The notes under the pieces: generated by a model | The model's database searches: none | The model's input: only the letters and a program-made list of their open reading frames with translations | Told to the model about the DNA's origin: nothing | Assembly: GCF_000245015.1 (NCBI RefSeq) | Contig: NZ_JH600070.1 | Coordinates: forward strand, 1,568,437-1,632,436 | DNA: 64,000 nucleotides | Source: Beggiatoa alba B18LD | GTDB taxonomy: Bacteria; Pseudomonadota; Gammaproteobacteria; Beggiatoales; Beggiatoaceae | Reading direction: 5' to 3' | Part shown: positions 3,001 through 60,802 of the stretch, piece after piece | Numbering within the stretch: the first letter of the stretch is position 1 | Layout: the number at the start of each line of letters is the position of its first letter | Made by a program: the position numbers and the translations under genes

Positions 3001-5850
3001 CTATCCACAAAACCAGCGTCTAACCATTTCTACTTGAAAACGATAGCCTTTTCCTAACGGTTCAAGGAGTTCCCGTTGTAAGAGATTTTGTAGTGCAGGG
3101 GTAAATACTTCCAATGTATAGGGTTTTGCTAATTCTTCCGTGGTTAAAATAGCCCCTTCTCCACACTCAGCGAGTCGATGTAATATTTCTGCACCGATAT
3201 GGCTGACTTGATTATTTTCTATATCTGCAAAAAAGAAACGCCCATGTTGTAATGCAGAGGGAATTGCCGCGTCGACATTTTCTAAAGTGGCTAAACGTCT
3301 TTCATGAATGTGTTGGCGATTTTTTAAGGTCACAATTTCCGCACATAGGAGTTGTATTAGCGCAGGATGACAACGGGTTACTTCCATCACACGTTGGCTT
3401 GCATTGTATTCGTAACGTAATGCAAAGCCTTGTACTGGTTGTTCAATGAGTTTTAGGGCTTCACTGGCTTGTAAATAACTTAAGTGCACAATTCGAACAT
3501 TAATTAAATAACTTGCCCAGCGTTCAAATTCATCTATCGTGTGTGAGCCTGATAGTAGGAGCTTGAAGCGTGGTCGATGTTGGATGATGTGGCGGAACAT
3601 GCCTAATACAGAGGCTTCATCTAATAAATTTTTTGCAAATACATGTTCTAACGCGCTGAATTCATCTAAGGTTAATAAAATAGTTTGTTGTGATTCTAGG
3701 CTTTGTTCTATGGTGTCTAGCCATTCATCAAAATAAGTAAATGGGTCATCGCGTAAGATTTCGCGGTTTAGTGCGGGTAGCTGAATTTCACGATGCCGCT
3801 TTGCAGAACTCAGCATTGCTCGACTGATATTGTATAAAAAGCCTTCGTAATTTTTTGCGAGTGAAGCAGGCCCTTGTAAATCTACAAATAATGGAATAAT
3901 TGTGCTGGGTAGTAATCGCCCTAAGTTATTTAATAGTGATGTTTTTCCTGTACGGCGTTGTCCGTAAAGCAATAAAGGCGGGCAACGATTGTCAAGGAGT
4001 AAACGTTCTATTTGTTCGCTGACATCTCCCCGACCAACAAAGATTTCTTGATGTTCTGTTAAGGGAATACCAATAATGTACGGATTGCTAATCTCTTGCC
4101 GACTTTCAACGGCTTCGCCTAAAGCACGCCCATAATCAGAAAGTTGTTGCCGCCATTGTTCTGCAATTGGGCGAAAACGAAGCGCGTAAGGTTCTGTAGA
4201 ACGGGTTAATTCGCGTAATAAACCATCTAAGCGTTCTTCAACGGCATCTAAGGCTAGACGTTGATTATAGGTGCTTTCTTGTAATAAAGCGGCTTCTGTA
4301 TCGCGGCTAATTCGGCTTAAACTACGTAGTAGGGCACTGACAGGGCTGGATAATTCGCCCGCTGCTAAATGTTTATGTGCTTTACTAATAGCGGCAACGG
4401 TTTGACATTGTTCTAATCGACGTGCATCTAGCTCGATTTGTGCTTCTTGTGCTGCCCATTTCTGTGGGGTTTGACTCAGTGCATAAATAGCCTGCTCAGT
4501 TTCAGCAGGTTTACGCTCGGCTAACATCACTAAATAGCTTTCTAAGCCATAGAGTGGTAAGCGTTGTCGTTCATCCCAAAATGCAGAATGTAGTGGCAGT
4601 AAACTGGGCGCATCAGGCGCACGTAATTCTTCTAAGCGGTATAAAATTAAGTTCCAAGCAGATACAAATGGATAAATTAATAAAGAAATCCAAGCGGGAA
4701 AACTAATGCCGATTAAAAATGCCAGTAGTAAGAAGCGTAATGTCAATTCTAATGATTGCGTTTTTAATATTACTACGAAGGCAATATACATGCCTGCACT
4801 GCTAAAAATTCCCGCAACTAAGCCAGCCCACGGATTTGCAATTCGTTTTGCTAATGCATAAGGAAAGGCAAATAGGAGTGTATAAAGTAGTCCATTTTCT
4901 ATACCGTCATGAACGCCTTTAATTATTAAAGATAAGCTGTTTTGGTCTTCAAATTGATTCAATGGTAGTGTGCTGAGAATCAGCAGGGTGCTCACTAAAA
5001 AGCCTAAGAGTAGCCCTTGCCCAATGCGTAACGTTTGTAGTATCCAAATGAGAAAAATTGCGATACCAAACATAAGACTAATTAAACTGTCATAGACGAA
5101 ACTAAACACGCCTCCATTTTCAAGTAGTTTCGCCGCTCCCTGTGCCAATGTGCTAATAAATTGAATAATAAAATAAATCGCACCACTGCTGATAATAACG
5201 CCAATGACAACGCTACCGATTTGTCGTTGTTGTGAATGGCGATAAGGGGTTATCGTGATGTTTTGCATAATGCTTGCGGCAAGGCTTGCCGTAAACACGG
5301 CTAATAATATCGTCATCCATGCTTGTAATGTCCCTTGTGGGATTTGAATACTTTCTTCACTGACGTTGAGCATGACAACAATTGCAATATTTTCCGCCAT
5401 GCTAAACACGGTTTCGTTGTATAAACCAACCGTTAAACTTAGGGCGATACCGCCAATAATGCCAATCGTGATGCCGAAAATAACGGAGACGCTTAAACTA
5501 CCGATTAAACCGCCAATGAGGGTGAAAAAGTAGGCGTAAGCACCGCTTAAAAAGAGTGCATCTGTTGTATTTGTAAATAAGCTAACCATGCTAATGGTGA
5601 TTAAACTCACCCAGATTGCCCAGATAACATGCCCTGCTAATAACAATTGCCATAAATGGGTAGATTGCCAGTGTATTGTCTGTAAATCACTGAGTGCGAA
5701 ATCAGGGGGCAGATTAGGGCTAATATCTTGTAGATAACGTCGCCATCCTGTCGGTTTAAACAATAACCAGCCTAATAATGAAAAACTCAGTAAGCAACTT
5801 TGTAGTAAGAAATGTCGGAAGCGCGGGCGCGATTGAGCGGAAACATTCAT
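3001..5850 (-). CDS. Polytopic membrane protein with C-terminal STAND/ORC-like P-loop NTPase
   Basis: Protein of 949 residues. Residues 12-400 hold about ten hydrophobic segments forming a Gly-rich membrane domain. Residues 430-580 are helical and charged, probably a cytoplasmic linker. The NTPase follows: an entry motif at 589-607 (NPYIIGIPLTEHQEIFVGR), Walker A GQRRTGKTS at 630-638, Walker B ILLTLDEF at 724-731, a sensor-like LLLSGSH at 765-771 and a winged-helix-like end at about 880-949. The entry motif and P-loop layout match the next gene upstream, so the two probably descend from one NTPase family. STAND-type NTPases act as ligand-triggered switches in signalling or defence; which applies here cannot be told from sequence. 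A hairpin separates it from the upstream gene, so it may have its own promoter. Confidence 0.8.
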   Translation of the reverse strand: MNVSAQSRPRFRHFLLQSCLLSFSLLGWLLFKPTGWRRYLQDISPNLPPDFALSDLQTIHWQSTHLWQLLLAGHVIWAIWVSLITISMVSLFTNTTDALFLSGAYAYFFTLIGGLIGSLSVSVIFGITIGIIGGIALSLTVGLYNETVFSMAENIAIVVMLNVSEESIQIPQGTLQAWMTILLAVFTASLAASIMQNITITPYRHSQQRQIGSVVIGVIISSGAIYFIIQFISTLAQGAAKLLENGGVFSFVYDSLISLMFGIAIFLIWILQTLRIGQGLLLGFLVSTLLILSTLPLNQFEDQNSLSLIIKGVHDGIENGLLYTLLFAFPYALAKRIANPWAGLVAGIFSSAGMYIAFVVILKTQSLELTLRFLLLAFLIGISFPAWISLLIYPFVSAWNLILYRLEELRAPDAPSLLPLHSAFWDERQRLPLYGLESYLVMLAERKPAETEQAIYALSQTPQKWAAQEAQIELDARRLEQCQTVAAISKAHKHLAAGELSSPVSALLRSLSRISRDTEAALLQESTYNQRLALDAVEERLDGLLRELTRSTEPYALRFRPIAEQWRQQLSDYGRALGEAVESRQEISNPYIIGIPLTEHQEIFVGRGDVSEQIERLLLDNRCPPLLLYGQRRTGKTSLLNNLGRLLPSTIIPLFVDLQGPASLAKNYEGFLYNISRAMLSSAKRHREIQLPALNREILRDDPFTYFDEWLDTIEQSLESQQTILLTLDEFSALEHVFAKNLLDEASVLGMFRHIIQHRPRFKLLLSGSHTIDEFERWASYLINVRIVHLSYLQASEALKLIEQPVQGFALRYEYNASQRVMEVTRCHPALIQLLCAEIVTLKNRQHIHERRLATLENVDAAIPSALQHGRFFFADIENNQVSHIGAEILHRLAECGEGAILTTEELAKPYTLEVFTPALQNLLQRELLEPLGKGYRFQVEMVRRWFCG

Positions 5851-5890
5851 GCGGAATGGTCAATGTATGCAGTCAGAGGGGAACATTGAA

Positions 5891-5936
5891 AGATAAAAGG
5901 CTGTGACAGCCTTTGCACTGTCGCAACCTTTTATCT
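5891..5936 (-). terminator. Hairpin between the two NTPase genes
   Basis: Inverted repeat 5891-5909 with 5918-5936 (outer arm AGATAAAAGG/CCTTTTATCT), an 8-nt loop and small mismatches, starting 2 bases after the stop codon at 5939. A weak T run follows on the minus strand. It probably ends transcription of the helix-turn-helix NTPase gene or attenuates read-through into the membrane NTPase gene. Confidence 0.55.
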
Positions 5937-5938
5937 AT

Positions 5939-7129
5939 TTATGATATGTCTTGTGTTAATAGATAACGATAAGAATTCATGCGTTTTAAGCCTTCAACCT
6001 GCCATGCAAGTCCTGTTTGATTTTCTTGCAAAGCGGTTAAACGGGCATGACAAAGAATCTGCAACAGGGCAGGCCATAAACCACTTTCAGCCATAATCCA
6101 CGCGGTATCTGCTTCAGAAAAAGGAATGGGTGAGCTTTGAATCAATGCCAAGGCTTCTGTTTCTGTTAACGCGCCTAAATTCAGAACATGCCCAAAAATA
6201 TTAAAGAATGGCGATGGTTTACTATTATCCATTGCCATTTCTTCAGGGGCTTGATGGGCGGTTAATAAAAATCCGAGTTTACCGTTTGTATGATTACTGC
6301 CTAATGAACGTAATCCCCACCAAAATTGCTCATCTAAATCTGTTGCGGCTAACCCTGCATTAATTTCATCTAACAAGATAATGGTTGGAATTGTTAGATA
6401 TTGATCAATAATTTCCATAAAGCTGATTAAATCGCAAGGTTCTGGTACAGGCATATTCATTTCAACCAATAAATGCCGTAACAGACTTTCTTGATAGCAC
6501 ATACGTGGGTCTTGAAAATCAACAAAAATCCATTGATAACCCGGTAATAGCCAATCATTACGTTGTCCTGTGCGTAGCTGGTCGGCTGGGGTGTCAATAA
6601 TGCGACGTAAATAATGCAGTAAAGACGTTTTACCACTGCGCTTTAAACCAACAACGGCAATATGTTGAAGGGGCGTACATTTCCAAACATCGAAAATTCG
6701 TTTTAATACATACTCACGCCCAAAAAATTGACGAGGTTCTGTAATAGGGGGGCCAATAATAAAAGGACTGCGTTGTATTGCACCCAGATTAAAAGAAAGT
6801 GAAGGTGTTGCCATGCGATAACGTGTCCCATGCTCAAGCGGAAAACCTGCCGCTGTTAAGAGGGTATTGCGTTCTTCAGCGTTTAAATTGAGATATGTTG
6901 CACAACGAATAACATCCGCCCGTTGACGTGGACGGCTAACAGTACCATTTAACCAACGGGTTAAAGTTCCCCGCCGAATATTTAATGCTTCCGCAAAAGT
7001 TGCTTCATTGATATTGCACCGTTTTAAATAAGACTTTAATAGCACTGCAAAGGCTTGCGGTGCGACTTGTAAGGCTAGGTGCTGGGTCTTTTTTACCGCT
7101 GAAAGTGAATTTGCCATATGAATCTTCAT
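5939..7129 (-). CDS. Helix-turn-helix protein with P-loop NTPase domain
   Basis: Protein of 396 residues. Residues 35-75 are an XRE-like helix-turn-helix (NEATFAEALNIRRGTLTRWL), followed by a short helical part and an AAA/ORC-like NTPase: entry motif 122-138 (PFIIGPPITEPRQFFGR), Walker A GLKRSGKTS at 161-169, Walker B IILLDEI at 250-256, sensor-like LLTAHQ at 288-293. The entry motif is nearly that of the membrane NTPase downstream. The DNA-binding head suggests an NTP-gated regulator. It is divergent from the secreted protein at 7306, with 176 bp between the start codons. The start could also be the ATG at 7117, since AAGG lies only 2 nt before the first ATG. Confidence 0.8.
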   Translation of the reverse strand: MKIHMANSLSAVKKTQHLALQVAPQAFAVLLKSYLKRCNINEATFAEALNIRRGTLTRWLNGTVSRPRQRADVIRCATYLNLNAEERNTLLTAAGFPLEHGTRYRMATPSLSFNLGAIQRSPFIIGPPITEPRQFFGREYVLKRIFDVWKCTPLQHIAVVGLKRSGKTSLLHYLRRIIDTPADQLRTGQRNDWLLPGYQWIFVDFQDPRMCYQESLLRHLLVEMNMPVPEPCDLISFMEIIDQYLTIPTIILLDEINAGLAATDLDEQFWWGLRSLGSNHTNGKLGFLLTAHQAPEEMAMDNSKPSPFFNIFGHVLNLGALTETEALALIQSSPIPFSEADTAWIMAESGLWPALLQILCHARLTALQENQTGLAWQVEGLKRMNSYRYLLTQDIS

Positions 7130-7305
7130 TCCTTGTAAAGACTCGCTTTACAGTGAATGTGTAAAAACACCTCTGTCAGGTTTTTAGGTAGATATTTTGC
7201 TAAACTTGAGGATAAAACAAGGCATTCATTCTTAAAATTGAATCACTCAGTTTAAATGAAGATTAATGAATCCCTTTTATTAGTCTATTTAAGGAGTTAG
7301 TGTTT

Positions 7306-8061
7306 ATGAAAAAATTTATTTGTGTATTATTAGTCTTTTGGTTAAATAGTGTATATGCCGTTAATGACGATATGGTTGTTATCCGTTCTAATTCTCCTTT
7401 ATTTACGATAGGACAATTATTGTCATCTACGACGGCAGTAATGCTCCCTCAAGGGGCAGAAATTACCCTTGTTTTTGCAGATGGTCAAAGTACTACTTTA
7501 CAAGGGGCATTCCAAGGACTAGTGCAAAAACCACGCCTTTCATCAGTAAAAACAGCGAATACATCCAGCGAAGAGACCCCAACGGTCACAAATCATGAGA
7601 ATATAGCGGTCGCGTTGGCGGGAATTTTGCACAGCAGTGAGCTATCCACCCCATTAACACGAAGTCCGCAGGAGTCCCCCGCTGATTTATGGTTAGTTGA
7701 TATTAGCACGAAAAAACGTCATTACTGTGTTGCTAATCCTGAACAGCTTTCTCTCTGGCGACCTGAAACGGATAGTCGTTTAGCAGGCGATTTATTAATT
7801 AAACACAAATCATCAGGACAACAAGCAGAAGTCGTGTGGCCTGCCAATCGCACCACTATCCAATGGCCACATAATTTACCCGTTGTTTATGGGGATACTT
7901 ACACAGTGGAATTGAGCAGTCGACATGGCAGTTCTACCTTTAAAATGCTGGTATTGTATCAACTCCCTGATAATTTACCCACTGTCTCACACAAAGTGGT
8001 CTGGATGGTGGGAAAAGGATGTATTCCTCAAGCCAACATGTTAATGGCGAGTTTACGATAA
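7306..8061 (+). CDS. Secreted protein with FecR-like N-terminus and two-Cys WP/KGC domain
   Basis: The start is the ATG at 7306 (251 residues): AAGGAG at 7291-7296 is 9 nt upstream, and the signal peptide (MKKFICVLLVFWLNSVYA) begins there; a GTG two codons earlier is too close to the site. Residues about 22-70 (SPLFTIGQLL, LPQGAEITLVFADGQSTTLQGAF) resemble the strand pattern of FecR-type domains. The C-terminal 120 residues carry CVANPEQLSLWR, EVVWP, TTIQWP, LPDNLP and KGCIPQANML, which match position by position the C-terminal domain of the secreted protein at 60257. The two conserved cysteines may form a disulfide. The function is unknown; divergence from the HTH-NTPase gene suggests possible co-regulation. 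Confidence 0.8.
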   Translation: MKKFICVLLVFWLNSVYAVNDDMVVIRSNSPLFTIGQLLSSTTAVMLPQGAEITLVFADGQSTTLQGAFQGLVQKPRLSSVKTANTSSEETPTVTNHENIAVALAGILHSSELSTPLTRSPQESPADLWLVDISTKKRHYCVANPEQLSLWRPETDSRLAGDLLIKHKSSGQQAEVVWPANRTTIQWPHNLPVVYGDTYTVELSSRHGSSTFKMLVLYQLPDNLPTVSHKVVWMVGKGCIPQANMLMASLR

Positions 8062-8271: not shown

Positions 8272-8799
8272 ATGGAAAAAATAATTTTTACTGGACCTAT
8301 GGGCGCAGGTAAAACAACAGCTATCAGCTCAATTAGTGAAGTACCGCCAATTTCTACAGATGTCCGTTGTTCTGATAATGAAGGACAGGCACGCAAAGAA
8401 ACGACGACGGTCGCAATGGATTATGGTTATTTCACCTTAGATGATGGTCAACGTGTCCATTTATATGGCACACCCGGACAACAACGCTTTGATTATATGT
8501 GGACAATTTTAGCACAAGGGGGAATTGGTTTAGTGCTACTATTAGACAATGCTCGCCCAGACCCGCTCGCTGACTTAGAATTTTACCTTGATTCCTTTAA
8601 AGACTTTATCAATCAAACGGGGGCAGTCATTGGTATTACCCGTATGGACGTGTCTAACCACGTTAGTTTAGACGACTATAGAAATAAACTAATGAGCAGA
8701 AACCAAATTTTTCCATTGTTCGAAATTGATGCACGTCAGGCAAATGATGTAAAAATATTAGTTCATGCTTTATTAGCTATTTTACAAGCACAAATGTGA
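8272..8799 (+). CDS. Small Ras-like GTPase (SRPRB/COG2229-type), first of two
   Basis: Protein of 175 residues, a single G domain. G1 GPMGAGKT is at 8-15, switch threonines TTT at 45-47, G3 GTPGQ at 66-70 in place of the usual DxxG, and G4 is TRMD at 123-126 with Arg where Lys is canonical. This pattern is typical of the bacterial GTPases that pair with Roadblock proteins, as in MglA/MglB of Myxococcus, although this is the COG2229-like branch and not MglA itself. It heads a cluster with a second, very similar GTPase at 10030 and a Roadblock protein at 10620. No clear ribosome binding site lies before the ATG. Confidence 0.88.
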   Translation: MEKIIFTGPMGAGKTTAISSISEVPPISTDVRCSDNEGQARKETTTVAMDYGYFTLDDGQRVHLYGTPGQQRFDYMWTILAQGGIGLVLLLDNARPDPLADLEFYLDSFKDFINQTGAVIGITRMDVSNHVSLDDYRNKLMSRNQIFPLFEIDARQANDVKILVHALLAILQAQM

Positions 8800-8871
8800 T
8801 AAAAGCAGTATGATACACACACTTGATTCCACCCAATCACAAATACAACTTTGGATTCAATGGTATAAATT

Positions 8872-8952
8872 ATGCTAAATTGGCAGAGAAACATTTTAAC
8901 GCACGTAGTTTTTACGTGGTTTGTTATTGGTGCGATTAGTCGTTTAATGTGA
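8872..8952 (+). CDS. Possible 26-residue membrane micropeptide
   Basis: Short ORF from an ATG at 8872 whose stop ends one base before the ATG of the next gene. The peptide is amphipathic to hydrophobic (HVVFTWFVIGAISRLM). The tight junction suggests translational coupling, but there is no clear ribosome binding site and nothing to show that it is translated. Confidence 0.25.
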   Translation: MLNWQRNILTHVVFTWFVIGAISRLM

Positions 8953-8953
8953 T

Positions 8954-10033
8954 ATGCCCTACAAAATTTCCATTAAAGCGTTGGAGAAAAACGATAGCGT
9001 CTTCTTCAAATCCATGTTGCAACTCGTGCAAAGACAGCTCAGTGCAGAATGGGAATTTGCAGAAACTGCTAATATTACCGTGGTTGATGTGGAACAAACC
9101 GATGGCAAACTCTTCTGGGAACACGCAATCAGTGATAAACAATGTGTTATTGCCTATGCAAAATACAATATCTATGATGCTCAATGGTTTCTCCCTAAAC
9201 CCATCCGTGTACAGCCACTCATTACCCTCTTGAATGCGCTAGTTGAATACCAATCCATTGCTTGCCAAATTCCGTTAACAACATCAACGCCTGCTGTTGC
9301 TACGCCATTGGTACCAACAAGCTCTATCCCCATTCTTTTAAAAACGCCAACAATAAACCAAGCTATCACCCCCTCACAATCTGAGGCAACTAATGATAAT
9401 AATAACAATCGGTTTAACCCTGCTCAATATCTCTTAGGACTTCTTCAAACCGCGATACAAGCCAAAACAATTAAACGATTTAGCTGTGCAGGACTTCCCC
9501 CTATTTATCTCCTCCCGACAGAACGTCGTTGTTTTACAACCAAACTCGGGATGAGTCTTAATCAACTGAATTCTGCTCAAAAAATGATGTATGGCGCGTA
9601 CTCTGAACACATAGACTGCAGCGAGTTATCGCCCGAAACGGTTTTAAGCGAAGTAGAAAAAAGTGGTTTAAATGGTTATCCCATTGAAACAATCCTATGG
9701 GTAACAACATTAGCCGCGTCCCATGGACGCATCATTACCTCTTATCCCCCTAATGTTTCTATCCGTTTAAAACAATGGCCAAATTTTGCTGTTTTACCAC
9801 ACCAACCAACTTACATGAATCTCGCCGCATTTATGCTAAAACACGGTGCAGATTTATCGACGATTGCAGAAAAGACCCAAGTAGAACTTCATACTGTTAT
9901 TGACTTCTTCAATGCCTGCCAAGTTTTAGGACTGACAATTGCAGAAGAGAAACAAAATCCACTACAGGAAAAATCTGTGTCAGGGGTAAAACGTCACTTG
10001 TTTAAAGGTATCTTAAAACGCCTAATGTCATGA
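8954..10033 (+). CDS. Unknown partner protein of the GTPase/Roadblock module
   Basis: Protein of 359 residues, cytosolic, no membrane segment. Residues 1-100 form an alpha/beta domain (KISIKALEKND, AKYNIYDAQWFLPKPI). Residues 105-155 are a Pro/Thr/Asn-rich linker. Residues 155-340 form a second domain containing GLLQTAIQAKTIKRFSCAGLPPIYLLPTERR (quoted in parts: GLLQTAIQAKTIKRF then LPPIYLLPTERR) and ending in a helical, winged-helix-like segment (LSTIAEKTQVELHTVIDFFNACQVLGL). Its stop overlaps the start of the second GTPase gene (ATGA), so the two are translationally coupled. I do not recognise the family. Context suggests an effector or regulator of the GTPases. Confidence 0.8.
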   Translation: MPYKISIKALEKNDSVFFKSMLQLVQRQLSAEWEFAETANITVVDVEQTDGKLFWEHAISDKQCVIAYAKYNIYDAQWFLPKPIRVQPLITLLNALVEYQSIACQIPLTTSTPAVATPLVPTSSIPILLKTPTINQAITPSQSEATNDNNNNRFNPAQYLLGLLQTAIQAKTIKRFSCAGLPPIYLLPTERRCFTTKLGMSLNQLNSAQKMMYGAYSEHIDCSELSPETVLSEVEKSGLNGYPIETILWVTTLAASHGRIITSYPPNVSIRLKQWPNFAVLPHQPTYMNLAAFMLKHGADLSTIAEKTQVELHTVIDFFNACQVLGLTIAEEKQNPLQEKSVSGVKRHLFKGILKRLMS

Positions 10034-10560
10034 GTGAAATTAAAATTGTATTTACTGGTAGTATGGGAGCAGGTAAAAGCTCTGCAATCGCCACCATTAG
10101 CGAAATCCCTGTGATTAACACCGATGTGCGTGCCACTGATTTAGAAACGGCACAACGCAAAGAAAAAACCACAGTCGCAATGGACTATGGCGAACTTACC
10201 CTAGAAGATGGACAAAAACTCCGTTTATACGGTACACCGGGTCAACAACGCTTTGACTACATGTGGAAAATTTTAACTAAAGGCGCGCTAGGTCTCATTA
10301 TTCTTATAGATAATGCAGGTTCAGACCCTATTGGTGATTTAGCCCGCTATTTAGACAATTTCCATGAATTTATTACGGAAACAACAGCCGTTATTGGAAT
10401 TACACGCACAGATATCAGCAATGAACCGAGTATTGAGGCATACTATACATTTTTGCAAAATCGCGGGATTCAACTGCCTTTATTTCCCATTGATGCCCGC
10501 TCAAAAGAAAGTGTCGTGATGCTCATACAAGCCCTTGTCGCAATGCTCGAGTTTGGTTAA
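10030..10560 (+). CDS. Small Ras-like GTPase (SRPRB/COG2229-type), second of two
   Basis: Protein of 176 residues. G1 GSMGAGKS at 10-17, switch threonines at 47-48, G3 GTPGQ at 68-72, G4 TRTD at 125-128. It matches the GTPase at 8272 along its whole length (TVAMDYG, LYGTPGQQRFDYMW, VIGITR), so the pair is a local duplication. It overlaps the preceding gene by 4 bases and lies 59 bp before the Roadblock gene, which is the usual regulator of such GTPases (activating protein or guanine-nucleotide exchange scaffold). Confidence 0.9.
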   Translation: MSEIKIVFTGSMGAGKSSAIATISEIPVINTDVRATDLETAQRKEKTTVAMDYGELTLEDGQKLRLYGTPGQQRFDYMWKILTKGALGLIILIDNAGSDPIGDLARYLDNFHEFITETTAVIGITRTDISNEPSIEAYYTFLQNRGIQLPLFPIDARSKESVVMLIQALVAMLEFG

Positions 10561-10619
10561 ATCACCTAACCAAATTAACTGACAAACATCATGACTAATA
10601 CAGGATATGGATTTCAACT

Positions 10620-11009
10620 ATGGCACTGCTTTCAACAACACAAATCAAACAAGTAGAATTAAGACTCGGTAAATTACTCGATGACTGCAACGCAATTGAT
10701 GCAAGCGTCGTTGCAACATTAGACGGTCACCTCGTCGCCATGCGTCAAAAAGCAAACCAATACTCCTTAGAACGTTTGGCGACGATGGGTAGTACCCTCA
10801 TGTCACTTGGAGACACCATCACCGCCGAACTGCGTATGGGCAACTGCGAAAACGTCATTTCTGAAAACAAAGGCGGTATTATTGCCTTTATGCACGTCAA
10901 TAAAGACCTTGTCCTTGTCTCACTGACAACCCATAAAAATGCACTAGGTATGCTCCTAAGCTACTCACGGCGATATGCAGAAGAACTTGCACAAATTGTG
11001 ACCGCTTAA
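10620..11009 (+). CDS. Roadblock/LC7 domain protein
   Basis: Protein of 129 residues made of one Roadblock/LC7 fold: helix (QVELRLGKLLDDC), strand pair (DASVVATLDGHLVAMR), long helix (LERLATMGSTLMSLGDTITAEL), strands (ENVISENKGGIIAFMHVNKDLVLVSLTT) and a final helix (ALGMLLSYSRRYAEELAQIV). The family forms dimers that bind and regulate small GTPases; MglB is the best-known bacterial example. It closes the GTPase cluster. A role in polarity or surface motility would be plausible for a gliding filament, but that is inference. Confidence 0.88.
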   Translation: MALLSTTQIKQVELRLGKLLDDCNAIDASVVATLDGHLVAMRQKANQYSLERLATMGSTLMSLGDTITAELRMGNCENVISENKGGIIAFMHVNKDLVLVSLTTHKNALGMLLSYSRRYAEELAQIVTA

Positions 11010-11075
11010 ATACCAACCCCCTATTTGTTATAGCAGGTGGACGACCATCCACCTCACCACCTAATCCCACACCAT

Positions 11076-12200
11076 ATGCACCGTCTCAGCTTACTCATTG
11101 GCCTAATCCTCCTGCCAATACTGGGATTTAGCGAATCTACAGCCGACCAACTCCAACAACTCACTGCCCGTATTCAAGCACTGCAAGACAAAATGCAAGA
11201 CACCCGCACCGAATACGGACGCTTACAACGTCAACTTCAACAACGCGAAGAAGACATTGGTGAAACCGCTGAACGCCTAGACGGACTTAGCGAAGAACTA
11301 ACCGATAAACGCAACACCCTCATTGACTTAGAACAACAAAAACAACAACAGACCCAAAAACTCACAGAACAGCGTCAAGCCCTCGCCAAACAAATCCGCG
11401 CTGCTTACATCACAGGACGACAAGACTATCTAAAACTGTGGCTCAACCAACAAGACCCCTTTGCAATTGGTCGCGTACTCACCTATTACGACTACATCAA
11501 CCGCGCCCGTATTCAAGAAATTGATGCCATACAAACAACCCTTAAACACATCCAAACCCTAAGCCAACAAATTGTCCAAGAAACTAGCACTGTTAATACA
11601 CTTATTGGCGAACAAAGCACCAAAAAGAACCAACTAGAAACCAGCTACCAAGACCGCCAAGGCATTCTTGAAGAACTCGCCCGCACCATAGAAAGCACCG
11701 ATAAAGAAATCAAACGCCTACAAGACGACAAAAAACAACTAGAACAACTCCTAGGCATTGTCGACAAAACCTTTGAAACCCTCCCCCCGCCTGTAGAGTC
11801 CAACACCATTTTTGCTACACTCAAAGGCAACTTACCTCGCCCTGTTGCAGGTGACATTACAAAAAAATTTGGAGACGAACTCATCGGCTCACTAAAATAC
11901 CAAGGGTTACTGATTAATGCCCCACTTGGCGACAAAATCACCAGCATTGCCTCAGGACGCATTGCTTTTGCTGACTGGTTTCGTAATATGGGACAACTCA
12001 TTATCATCGACCACGGTAAAGGCTACATGAGCCTATACGGACACAACCAAAGCCTATACGTCAAAACAGGTGACTGGGTTGAAGCAGGTACTCCAATTGC
12101 CAGCGTTGGCAACAGCGGCGGGCGCAATATCACAGGTTTATACTTTGAACTCCGCTACCAAGGCGTTCCTGTTGACCCTTTGACGTGGATACATAATTAA
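11076..12200 (+). CDS. envC: EnvC-like murein hydrolase activator (degenerate LytM)
   Basis: The ATG at 11076 (374 residues) is preferred because the signal peptide (MHRLSLLIGLILLPILGFSES) starts there; an in-frame GTG lies 39 bases upstream. Residues 25-235 are two long coiled coils rich in Gln/Glu/Leu. Residues 260-374 form a LytM/M23 domain (DHGKGYMSLYGHNQSL, VGNSGGRNITGLYFELR) in which the zinc ligands are missing: no HxxxD and GLYFEL instead of HxH. This is the signature of EnvC, which does not cut peptidoglycan but activates amidases AmiA/AmiB at the septum. It stands 5' of ctpA, a common gene pair in proteobacteria. Confidence 0.88.
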   Translation: MHRLSLLIGLILLPILGFSESTADQLQQLTARIQALQDKMQDTRTEYGRLQRQLQQREEDIGETAERLDGLSEELTDKRNTLIDLEQQKQQQTQKLTEQRQALAKQIRAAYITGRQDYLKLWLNQQDPFAIGRVLTYYDYINRARIQEIDAIQTTLKHIQTLSQQIVQETSTVNTLIGEQSTKKNQLETSYQDRQGILEELARTIESTDKEIKRLQDDKKQLEQLLGIVDKTFETLPPPVESNTIFATLKGNLPRPVAGDITKKFGDELIGSLKYQGLLINAPLGDKITSIASGRIAFADWFRNMGQLIIIDHGKGYMSLYGHNQSLYVKTGDWVEAGTPIASVGNSGGRNITGLYFELRYQGVPVDPLTWIHN

Positions 12201-12287
12201 ATATACTTGTAACAAACGGGTAGCATACCCACATACGCTTTTACAGTTTCAGCTAAGTGCCATAACAACATATGGTCGGAGAATTTC

Positions 12288-13697
12288 ATGGATATCTTTT
12301 CCCGTCAACTACCTACACTCGTTGCAGGTACGGTGCTAGGTTCTTTCGTTGCCTTTACCATCCTAGGAACTAACGTTTTTGCCGAACGCGACACCAGTAC
12401 AAAAACCATTCCCTTTGAAGACCTACGTGCATTTACGGAAGTTTTCCACCGCATTAAAAGCAGCTATGTAGAACCCGTTGACGACAAAACACTTCTACAA
12501 AATGCCATTCAAGGAATGTTATCAGGGCTAGACCCCCATTCTAACTACCTTACAGAAGAAGCCTATCAAGAACTGCAAGTTGGCACGACAGGTGAATTCG
12601 GCGGTTTAGGCATTGAAGTAGGCATGGAAGATGGCTTTGTTAAAGTCATTTCCCCCATTGACGACACCCCCGCTCAAAAAGCAGGCATACAAGCGGGAGA
12701 CATGATTATCCGTTTAGACGATACCCCCGTAAAAGGCTTAAGTCTGACAGAAGCAGTTAAACTCATGCGCGGTAAACCAGGAAGCAGTATCAAACTGACC
12801 ATTGTCCGCGAAAACGAAGAAAAACCACTTACCATTGATATTGTCCGCGATATCATCCAAGTAAAAAGCGTGCGTAGCGATACCCTAGAACAAGGCTACG
12901 CCTATGTTCGTATCAGCCACTTCCAAGCCCATACTGGTGAAGACCTAAGCAAAGCTTTAGAAACCCTGAGAAAAGACAATAAAGATGGAATAAAAGGACT
13001 CGTCCTAGACCTACGCAATAACCCAGGGGGCGTACTCAACGCAGCTGTCGCCATCTCTGACGCATTCATTACAGACGGACTCATTGTGTACACCGAAGGA
13101 CGTACCAACGATGCCCATCTAAAATTTGAAGCCCGTCCCGATGACGTACTTAACGGTGCACCAATTGTTGTTCTCGTTAACGGTGGTTCAGCCTCAGCCT
13201 CCGAAATTGTTGCAGGCGCACTACAAGACCACAAACGCGCCATCATCATGGGTGAAAAAACCTTCGGAAAAGGCTCTGTACAGACCATTCTGCCGATGGG
13301 AAACAATGCAGCATTAAAACTCACCACAGCCCGTTACTACACCCCGTCAGGTCGCTCTATACAAGCAGAAGGGATTGTTCCTGATATCCCACTGAAACGC
13401 TTAGAACTTGCCGAAGCAAAAAATGAAGATTTAGGCTTAAGAGAAGCAGACCTTGCTCGTCATTTAGACAAAAAATCTAAAGCAGACGAAGTGAACAAAG
13501 CCCTAGAAGAGGAAGACCTGAAAAACGGCAAACAACCACAAGCCACAGATACTTCTAAAGATGCTAAAGACAGCAAAGACACAACCGCGAAAAAGGATGC
13601 AGAAAAACCGCTCGCCCAACGCGATTATGCTGTTCATGAAGCCCTTAACTTACTGAAAGGAATTATTATTTTAGAAACTCGTAAATCTGCTTCTTAA
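12288..13697 (+). CDS. ctpA: Carboxyl-terminal processing protease (S41 family)
   Basis: Protein of 469 residues with an N-terminal signal or anchor (about 9-31), a helical lead (FTEVFHRIKSSYVEPVDD), a PDZ domain at about 95-185 (GLGIEVGMEDG, AGIQAGDMIIRLDD) and the S41 protease core. The Ser-Lys dyad lies in NGGSASASE and GEKTFGKGSVQT. Residues 375-450 are a Lys/Asp/Glu-rich low-complexity tail not present in all homologues. It cleaves periplasmic substrates from the C terminus and in other bacteria limits peptidoglycan endopeptidases, which fits its place next to EnvC. GGAGAA sits before the ATG. Confidence 0.92.
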   Translation: MDIFSRQLPTLVAGTVLGSFVAFTILGTNVFAERDTSTKTIPFEDLRAFTEVFHRIKSSYVEPVDDKTLLQNAIQGMLSGLDPHSNYLTEEAYQELQVGTTGEFGGLGIEVGMEDGFVKVISPIDDTPAQKAGIQAGDMIIRLDDTPVKGLSLTEAVKLMRGKPGSSIKLTIVRENEEKPLTIDIVRDIIQVKSVRSDTLEQGYAYVRISHFQAHTGEDLSKALETLRKDNKDGIKGLVLDLRNNPGGVLNAAVAISDAFITDGLIVYTEGRTNDAHLKFEARPDDVLNGAPIVVLVNGGSASASEIVAGALQDHKRAIIMGEKTFGKGSVQTILPMGNNAALKLTTARYYTPSGRSIQAEGIVPDIPLKRLELAEAKNEDLGLREADLARHLDKKSKADEVNKALEEEDLKNGKQPQATDTSKDAKDSKDTTAKKDAEKPLAQRDYAVHEALNLLKGIIILETRKSAS

Positions 13698-60256: not shown

Positions 60257-60802
60257 ATGTTTAATATAAAGATAGTGTTATTAAGTACAGCGATAACCCT
60301 TATTCCCTTCGTTAGTTATAGCGCGGAAATAAACGGCAATAGTTCACAAGCAGAAAATGCAATATCCTCAGATGTTGGTCAACAATCCTTACGTCCACGA
60401 AAACGTAGCAACACCAGTTTACCGCCAAGCCTGTGGTCTATTAACGTGTACGAAGCAGGCGACTTTTGTTATAACAAGACGGAATATGTAAACCTTTGGC
60501 GGGCAGATACGAGCGAACCTGTTAAAATCACTATCCAATCACAAAACAACCCACAGCAAGAAGTCATATTACGCTGGCCAACACATCAAACCACACTAAC
60601 TTGGCCAAACACACAATTTCCTTTAAGCGAAGACAATCTTGCGTATATCATCCAAGTAAATGATATTGGTCGTTTAATTAACATTCACCGCCTACCCGAA
60701 CAACTTAACAACGCCAGTGCTACTGAACAAGCAAAATGGATGCAACAAAAAGGATGTGCACGCCAAGCGGAAATGCTGTTAAATACGGATATAAACTCCT
60801 AA
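60257..60802 (+). CDS. Secreted protein with two-Cys WP/KGC domain
   Basis: 181 residues. Signal peptide about 1-23 and a short Ser/Gln/Arg-rich linker. Residues 70-181 match the C-terminal domain of the protein at 7306: CYNKTEYVNLWR / CVANPEQLSLWR, VILRWPTHQTTLTWP / EVVWPANRTTIQWP, LPEQL / LPDNL, and KGCARQAEML / KGCIPQANML. The conserved cysteines may be disulfide-linked. It lacks the FecR-like N-terminal part of its relative. Function unknown. GAGGTAAAAAACC precedes the ATG. Confidence 0.8.
   Translation: MFNIKIVLLSTAITLIPFVSYSAEINGNSSQAENAISSDVGQQSLRPRKRSNTSLPPSLWSINVYEAGDFCYNKTEYVNLWRADTSEPVKITIQSQNNPQQEVILRWPTHQTTLTWPNTQFPLSEDNLAYIIQVNDIGRLINIHRLPEQLNNASATEQAKWMQQKGCARQAEMLLNTDINS

Follow-up and report, generated by a model that had tools for sequence, protein, structure and literature searches.

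A membrane-bound and a soluble STAND/ORC-type NTPase encoded side by side in Beggiatoa alba and its relatives: a possible two-switch signalling module with exchangeable heads

Nucleoside triphosphatases (NTPases) of the STAND class (signal transduction ATPases with numerous domains) underlie inflammasomes, resistosomes and bacterial regulators. As far as the available part of the source goes, the described system closest in plan to the locus analysed here is the two-gene nSTAND2 operon (eLife 2021, PMC8195603), in which one of the two NTPases is inactive and GT4 or HEPN domains are the commonest effectors. The accessible part of a second paper (Kaur et al. 2020, PMC7159879) deals with EAD coupling and a membrane-associated caspase pair in multicellular bacteria, not with the pair considered here. 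Our locus comes from Beggiatoa alba B18LD (Gammaproteobacteria, Beggiatoaceae; genome size 4.27 Mb) and lies in a stretch of 64,000 nucleotides of contig NZ_JH600070.1 (positions 1,568,437 to 1,632,436), which as a whole is called the window and is numbered from its first letter. At 3001-7129 the window encodes a large membrane-bound and a small soluble NTPase, both of STAND/ORC type. The reading that they form one module of two ATP switches, a membrane sensor and a soluble switch with exchangeable outputs, is given about an even chance here.

Both genes are located on the minus strand, with 88 bp between them. The large NTPase gene (3001..5850) encodes a polytopic membrane protein of 949 residues, in which a hydropathy scan revealed about ten hydrophobic segments (residues 13-398), followed by a linker (about 420-585) and a C-terminal STAND/ORC-type NTPase (589-949) with Walker A at 630-638, Walker B at D729/E730 and an invariant arginine, R753, as arginine-finger candidate. 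The small NTPase gene (5939..7129) encodes a soluble protein of 396 residues, consisting of an XRE-type helix-turn-helix (HTH) head (about 27-93), a low-confidence linker (100-109) and a STAND/ORC-type NTPase (116-396) with Walker A at 161-169, Walker B at D254/E255 and the invariant R274. The head gave weak Pfam matches under the cut-off (HTH_31, 6e-5), matched solved HTH proteins by profile (2kpj, 5e-6) and appears as a five-helix domain in the predicted structure. The two NTPase parts share 26% identity over 284 columns (BLASTP, E 5e-8) and their family profiles align with an E of 4.8e-21, so their likeness is not due to chance. A preliminary description, made from the letters alone, had recognised at exactly these coordinates an adjacent pair of related P-loop NTPases, one with a large polytopic membrane domain and the other with an XRE-like HTH, and all of this is borne out. 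It had also remarked on an unusual entry motif common to both proteins, which is indeed present as SPFIIGPPITEPRQFFGR in the small and as NPYIIGIPLTEHQEIFVGR in the large NTPase, the latter having one residue more ahead of the F; however, the motif is not peculiar to the pair, as it is present throughout the small-NTPase family in three phyla. The Walker A motifs of the pair read GLKRSGKTS and GQRRTGKTS.

A structural model of the small protein was built from an alignment of 27 sequences (predicted local distance difference test score, pLDDT, 88) and compared by VIA-align with the chains ranked highest by Foldseek. The best match was archaeal ORC2 (1w5t; Z 19.3, root-mean-square deviation 3.6, 251 aligned), followed by Cdc6/Orc1 (2qby, Z 18.5), Cdc6 (1fnn, Z 17.9), PabY2304 (2qen, Z 15.7), the ZAR1 resistosome (6j5t, Z 15.3), TnsC (7ufi, Z 15.2) and SSO1545 (2fna, Z 15.0). 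The small NTPase is therefore predicted to fold like ORC/Cdc6/STAND ATPases, and profile homology would place the large NTPase in the same class, in agreement with the STAND/ORC subfamily suggested in the preliminary description. Across 26 small NTPase domains, taken from three phyla, the G and K of Walker A, the D of Walker B and R274 do not vary, and the E of Walker B is kept in at least 90% of them. K636, D729, E730 and R753 are the same in all of 21 large proteins from the window's family, and among further large pieces Walker A was found in 49 of 51, the two misses being fragments, and the sequence DEF in 51 of 51. With these motifs intact, both NTPases of the window look catalytically competent, and the position of the arginine at the same aligned place in both suggests that it may serve as arginine finger.

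The small-protein alignment was scanned against the genomes of 84,980 species, and the best 80 of 130 confirmed loci, which were analysed, belong to Beggiatoaceae relatives, Cyanobacteria (Nostoc, Tolypothrix, Calothrix, Scytonema and others) and Chloroflexi (many of them Anaerolineae). Outside the Beggiatoaceae there are 57 loci, of which 53 were testable, L141, L148, L188 and L189 being omitted for too little downstream room. At 51 of these 53 loci the large gene either lies downstream on the same strand, at most 2.3 kb away, or forms a fusion with the small gene; two of the 51 were recognised only by pieces of the large protein without the NTPase. The five Beggiatoaceae loci kept out of the 57 comprise three with adjacent genes and two without. 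The fusion (L153, Brasilonema) is a single polypeptide of HTH, small NTPase (178-453) and large NTPase (454-815) and contains no membrane part. Adjacency was also found in seven of eight further cyanobacterial genomes, some of which may repeat scanned species. The preliminary description had made its case depend on the genes being neighbours in relatives and on kinship of the two NTPases; the genes, of one NTPase superfamily, recur side by side in all three lineages sampled, which goes against the refutation that it had named. In evenly drawn genome samples the small NTPase was encountered, at an E of up to 1e-30, in 9 of 292 Cyanobacteria (seed included, all with genomes of at least 6.7 Mb), in 5 of 301 Chloroflexi (two seeds included; two of the five are weak) and in three of the 274 genomes that represent the window's class, each of them a member of the window's family; its distribution outside the Beggiatoaceae is thus patchy.

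A quick tree was computed from 95 NTPase domain rows, in which 45 large and 48 small rows are separated by a branch with a support of 100, whereas the other two rows, although labelled as large, represent the mis-cut small-type domain of the L153 fusion and fall on the small side. From this branch it appears that large and small NTPases separated before the three lineages sampled arose, or that the pair was passed between these lineages together, and that the two have mostly stayed together. Cyanobacterial pairs are accompanied at 15 of 66 loci by a PIN-domain gene (PIN match 5e-13) and at 19 by a small partner gene, one genome being counted twice, and in the gaps inspected these genes sit between the two NTPases. 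One genome, L216, has the PIN and small partner genes with no large NTPase in view. In Nostoc-type genomes the same two neighbours, metabolic by eye, recur in 19 and 18 of 66 loci.

The head of the small NTPase is exchangeable and can be an XRE-type HTH, SARP/BTAD, TIR, CHAT or none. Alignment A6 holds 53 of the 57 loci (L152, L161, L167 and L185 were omitted as cut or short), and in 53 relatives Pfam detected 13 BTAD heads, found in Chloroflexi relatives, two CHAT heads (L144, 1e-6; L162, 4e-7) and one TIR head (L173, PF13676, 1.9e-15), the CHAT and TIR heads being cyanobacterial. HTH families gave weak matches, any single one in at most 7 of the 53, and most cyanobacterial heads are HTH-like by eye. 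At the Scytonema locus L162 the large protein (8954-12553, plus strand, 1199 residues) itself has a CHAT domain (below cut-off) and a full nSTAND1 domain that replaces the membrane part.

Close matches of the window pair were obtained from Beggiatoa, Thiomargarita and Thioploca, a family treated here as Beggiatoaceae. Among 42 genomes of this family, 30 possess both orthologues, two only the large, one only the small and nine neither (Fisher p 1e-6 for co-occurrence, with relatedness ignored and some genomes incomplete); the large orthologue is thus present in 32 and the small in 31, two of the latter as fragments. These counts were obtained with our own cut on lists of the stronger matches and include fragments. 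Leaving out two small-gene fragments (L091 in G021, and one in G028), 29 small-gene loci were examined, and at 17 of them the large gene, in one case a piece at a contig end, adjoins the small gene. The HTH is intact in 16 of the 29 small orthologues, lies in a second frame in one, is lost to a contig end in two and is absent in ten. Two of these ten retain remnants, namely out-of-frame pieces in one and a tail in the other, and tblastn revealed no significant HTH trace at the other eight loci. NTPase domains are 62-91% identical to that of the window across the 29 loci and still 62-76% in the HTH-less orthologues, and the HTH outside the genus is 38-51% identical; in ten HTH-bearing orthologues the whole small protein is 57-87% identical. 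On a quick tree the distribution of the HTH needs six label changes, of which only one is forced by the supported (starred) branches, and several independent losses are therefore likely, if not proven.

Divergently from the small NTPase gene, c1 (7300..8061, plus strand) encodes a secreted protein of 253 residues, whose N-terminus resembles a signal peptide by eye and whose model is rich in beta structure; two cysteines (C143 and C241) are invariant in 18 aligned sequences. The preliminary description had placed a secreted protein with a FecR-like part opposite the pair: the signal-peptide-like N-terminus stands, but the FecR-like part finds no support, as FecR is not among the Pfam matches at E up to 1, and none of the Pfam and NCBIfam families scores above its cut-off. 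When the model was compared with known structures by Foldseek, weak Ig/FN3-like matches were obtained, mostly with TM under 0.5. At 24 of 25 testable family loci c1 is divergent beside the small gene (four more loci end at a contig edge), and this arrangement also holds where the membrane gene sits elsewhere and at eight of nine testable loci without the HTH. With c1 adjoining the small gene at 24 of 25 loci and the large gene doing so at 17 of 29, the small gene and c1 are, within the Beggiatoaceae, a tighter couple than the small and large genes.

The region between the small NTPase gene and c1 (7130..7299, no strand assigned) contains at 7195-7207 the common motif TTTTGCTAAACTT, which resembles an extended -10 element and was found with 0-2 mismatches at 8 of 13 loci examined that have the HTH and at 4 of 6 that lack it. 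Palindromes and 12-mers were searched for in 19 such intergenic regions. The best 12-mers, TGCTAAACTTAA and a T-rich word, occur at 10 of 13 HTH-bearing loci with at most two mismatches, compared with a maximum of six after base shuffling (three reduced shuffles); as the T-rich word scores equally, base composition contributes to these results. The TTTTGCTAAACTTAA motif was rejected as an HTH operator, as it occurs with and without the HTH, and is read as promoter-like; near-matches of the intergenic motif across the whole window were at chance level, and a consensus promoter scan did not exceed shuffles. Elsewhere in the window (60257-60802, plus strand) a second, shorter c1-type secreted protein of 181 residues is encoded, which is 26% identical to c1 with its C-terminal part conserved, and the stretch listed around it holds no NTPase open reading frame (ORF) of the pair's family. 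On the other side of c1, at 8272-11009 (plus strand), lie two genes for closely similar small GTPases (PF03029/Ras-type), between them one for a protein that has no Pfam match, and a gene for a Roadblock/LC7 protein, a set that we take to be MglA/MglB-like; it recurs beside c1 in genome G005, and one related protein is present at L059.

Paralogous clusters extend this picture within the family. A second cluster in the window's genome (L042) encodes a membrane NTPase, a small NTPase with EAD7 at its end (3.6e-11), an HTH-NTPase and an EAD7 protein of 108 residues (1.5e-9). In other family genomes such clusters also encode proteins similar to c1, CHAT-TPR proteins that are secreted (PF12770, 9e-58 and 9e-62 in the two scanned) and exoproteins of two-partner secretion (PF05860, 7e-34 and 3e-34). 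Beside the window pair no EAD7, CHAT-TPR or two-partner-secretion genes were seen. Loci L072, L073 and L074 combine a small NTPase with c1-type and secreted CHAT-TPR proteins, and L072 and L074 also have the two-partner-secretion exoprotein. In the 4.27 Mb of the window's genome (G000), nine matches to CHAT domains exceed the Pfam cut-off, six of them at L217-L222. Related proteins of about 1115 residues, followed by an ABC-type ATPase, are encoded beside a paralogous NTPase cluster at L042 (3299-6649, plus strand) and, in a different genus, at L062 (1347-4691, plus strand); the one at L042 has a TRAP-type DctM part (4e-26) and, below the cut-off, an FtsX-like C-terminus. Two more membrane NTPases of the window's genome (L043:7590-9860 and L044:7138-9687, both minus strand) each have a protein of about 300 residues ahead of them (L043:9880-10806 and L044:9704-10591), which by eye might be taken for degenerate STAND partners, an assignment that found no support (profile probability 0.4).

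Taken as one module, the pair is probably a membrane-to-cytoplasm signalling device. The polytopic NTPase would sense a change at or in the cell envelope and, in its ATP-bound form, engage the soluble NTPase; because each NTPase keeps Walker A, Walker B and the invariant arginine, both may join in one ring. The soluble partner would then activate whichever head it carries. Since this head is an XRE-type HTH in the window, the likely output there is a change in transcription through putative DNA binding, and the best local candidate target would be c1. What is observed, and what the proposal builds on, is the kinship of the two NTPases, their pairing in three phyla, the one fusion, the exchange of heads and the intact catalytic motifs of the window pair. 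Several observations weigh against this proposal. The large and small genes are apart at 12 of the 29 family loci, and with the HTH missing from ten of 29 small orthologues of the window's own family, DNA binding would be dispensable in those members. No HTH-specific operator was identified in the 19 small/c1 intergenic regions, and c1 was matched only in Beggiatoaceae loci among 62 loci compared and therefore does not qualify as a general target. In place of the Walker B glutamate, 7 of 62 small relatives have D, N or Q, and in one the residue was not found; Beggiatoaceae paralogues also vary at this position. At L134, L135, L162, L171 and L185 and in the L153 fusion the large ORF has no membrane part, according to our own ORF calling, in which frame breaks are possible. 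The literature searched describes no experiment on any member. The signal-to-transcription circuit suggested in the preliminary description fits the HTH and SARP/BTAD heads, but less well the HTH-less orthologues and the outcome of the operator search.

The preliminary description had alternatively suggested a conflict system, and a counter-invader module, in which the pair would sense infection and the head would execute or recruit a response up to cell death (TIR, CHAT) or, as an HTH, recognise foreign DNA, silence it or activate effectors, is the main rival, although we consider it rather unlikely. Such a role is suggested by the TIR and CHAT heads on the same core, by EAD7 on a small NTPase and on its 108-residue neighbour in the paralogous cluster of the window's genome, by the PIN-domain and small partner genes of cyanobacterial pairs, by the secreted CHAT-TPR and two-partner-secretion proteins of paralogous clusters and by the two-gene nSTAND2 system, which the available text of PMC8195603 presents as a predicted counter-invader operon. 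However, TIR and CHAT heads account for just 3 of 53 relatives, the family has conserved the orthologous pair well, and Nostoc-type genomes share a neighbourhood around it, unlike a mobile defence island. Nor did a search with PADLOC-DB 2.0.0 favour the proposed association with defence islands: nothing was obtained for the small protein or c1, the large protein gave an insignificant match (E 0.032 over 22 residues), and eight window neighbours, scanned together with two cyanobacterial insert proteins, yielded weak matches only, all for one neighbour (11037-12200) and, by eye, of coiled-coil type. Patchiness outside the family would fit either reading. Another reading, in which the small gene and its divergent target c1 make up an ordinary STAND regulator of transcription like MalT, AfsR or IniR and the membrane NTPase is a frequent neighbour with its own job, appears improbable. 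The HTH and BTAD heads would agree with it, as would the constancy of c1 even where the membrane gene is elsewhere, and the available part of PMC5760070 presents IniR as an AAA+ regulator that has an SSO1545-like domain; but the pairing at 51 of 53 loci of two other phyla, the fusion and the co-occurrence in family genomes tie the large NTPase to the small one, and c1 remains divergent where there is no HTH. Chance or a recent tandem duplication of two ordinary NTPase genes could explain why members of one superfamily are adjacent on the same strand, but is highly improbable, given that the split apparently predates the three lineages sampled and that adjacency recurs in all of them.

In its widest form, the proposal of two coupled switches would describe an ancient two-STAND switch of filamentous bacteria from three phyla, in which the membrane NTPase drives its soluble partner and head exchange has equipped some members with a transcription factor (XRE, SARP/BTAD) and others with a predicted death or effector enzyme (TIR, CHAT), so that one core, possibly a membrane-tethered mixed ring, would serve both gene control and immune-type output; this is put forward tentatively. 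A series in which the same paired core bears DNA-binding, SARP, TIR or CHAT heads would make it possible to study directly how such a switch changes from controlling genes to causing cell death or back, and how signals travel from a STAND protein in the membrane to its soluble partner. The ten of 29 family loci that have lost the HTH but retained the NTPase open a test of the role of the NTPase without DNA binding.

In the literature searched, as far as the sources were available (PMC8195603, PMC7159879, PMC10907252 and PMC5760070 among them), the window pair is not described. PMC8195603 names, in its accessible part, an 'Npun2340/2341 family' of the MNS clade, which might be the window pair and is the main threat to novelty. 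With the nSTAND2 operon, as presented in that part of the paper, the pair shares two genes side by side, both of STAND type, a conserved arginine finger in both, which is a candidate in the window pair, and a variable output domain on one; in contrast, both window NTPases keep their Walker motifs, the partner is polytopic whereas the available description of nSTAND2 includes no membrane component, and the heads are HTH, BTAD, TIR or CHAT, with neither GT4 nor HEPN among the Pfam matches shown for the window pair and 53 relatives. Membership of nSTAND2 itself (PF20702) was rejected, as the small protein reaches 12.8 bits against a cut-off of 24 and the large protein is not listed; one of the 53 small relatives matches at E 0.01 or better (0.0017, 18.1 bits, below cut-off). 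Neither window protein matches nSTAND1 (PF20703) at E up to 1, and its cut-off of 27.1 bits is exceeded by the large relatives L132 (30.8), L147 (28.9), L173 (30.0) and L042 (32.6).

The EAD-coupled systems, as treated in the part of PMC7159879 available, are similar in their filamentous hosts and head exchange, and EAD7 is present in the paralogous cluster of the window's genome; unlike them, the window pair contains no EAD, MoxR, vWA or caspase domain in a Pfam scan. The archaeal SSO1545/PabY2304 ATPases (PF01637) resemble the small protein in fold (2fna and 2qen, see above) and through sub-threshold PF01637 matches, whereas the matched chains have no HTH head or membrane partner. MalT, AfsR/SARP and IniR likewise join a STAND/ORC-type ATPase to a DNA-binding domain, and the AfsR/SARP plan is matched by the BTAD heads of the Chloroflexi relatives. 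Unlike these regulators, the small protein of the window, in which no C-terminal sensor repeats were found, has a separate membrane NTPase as its partner.

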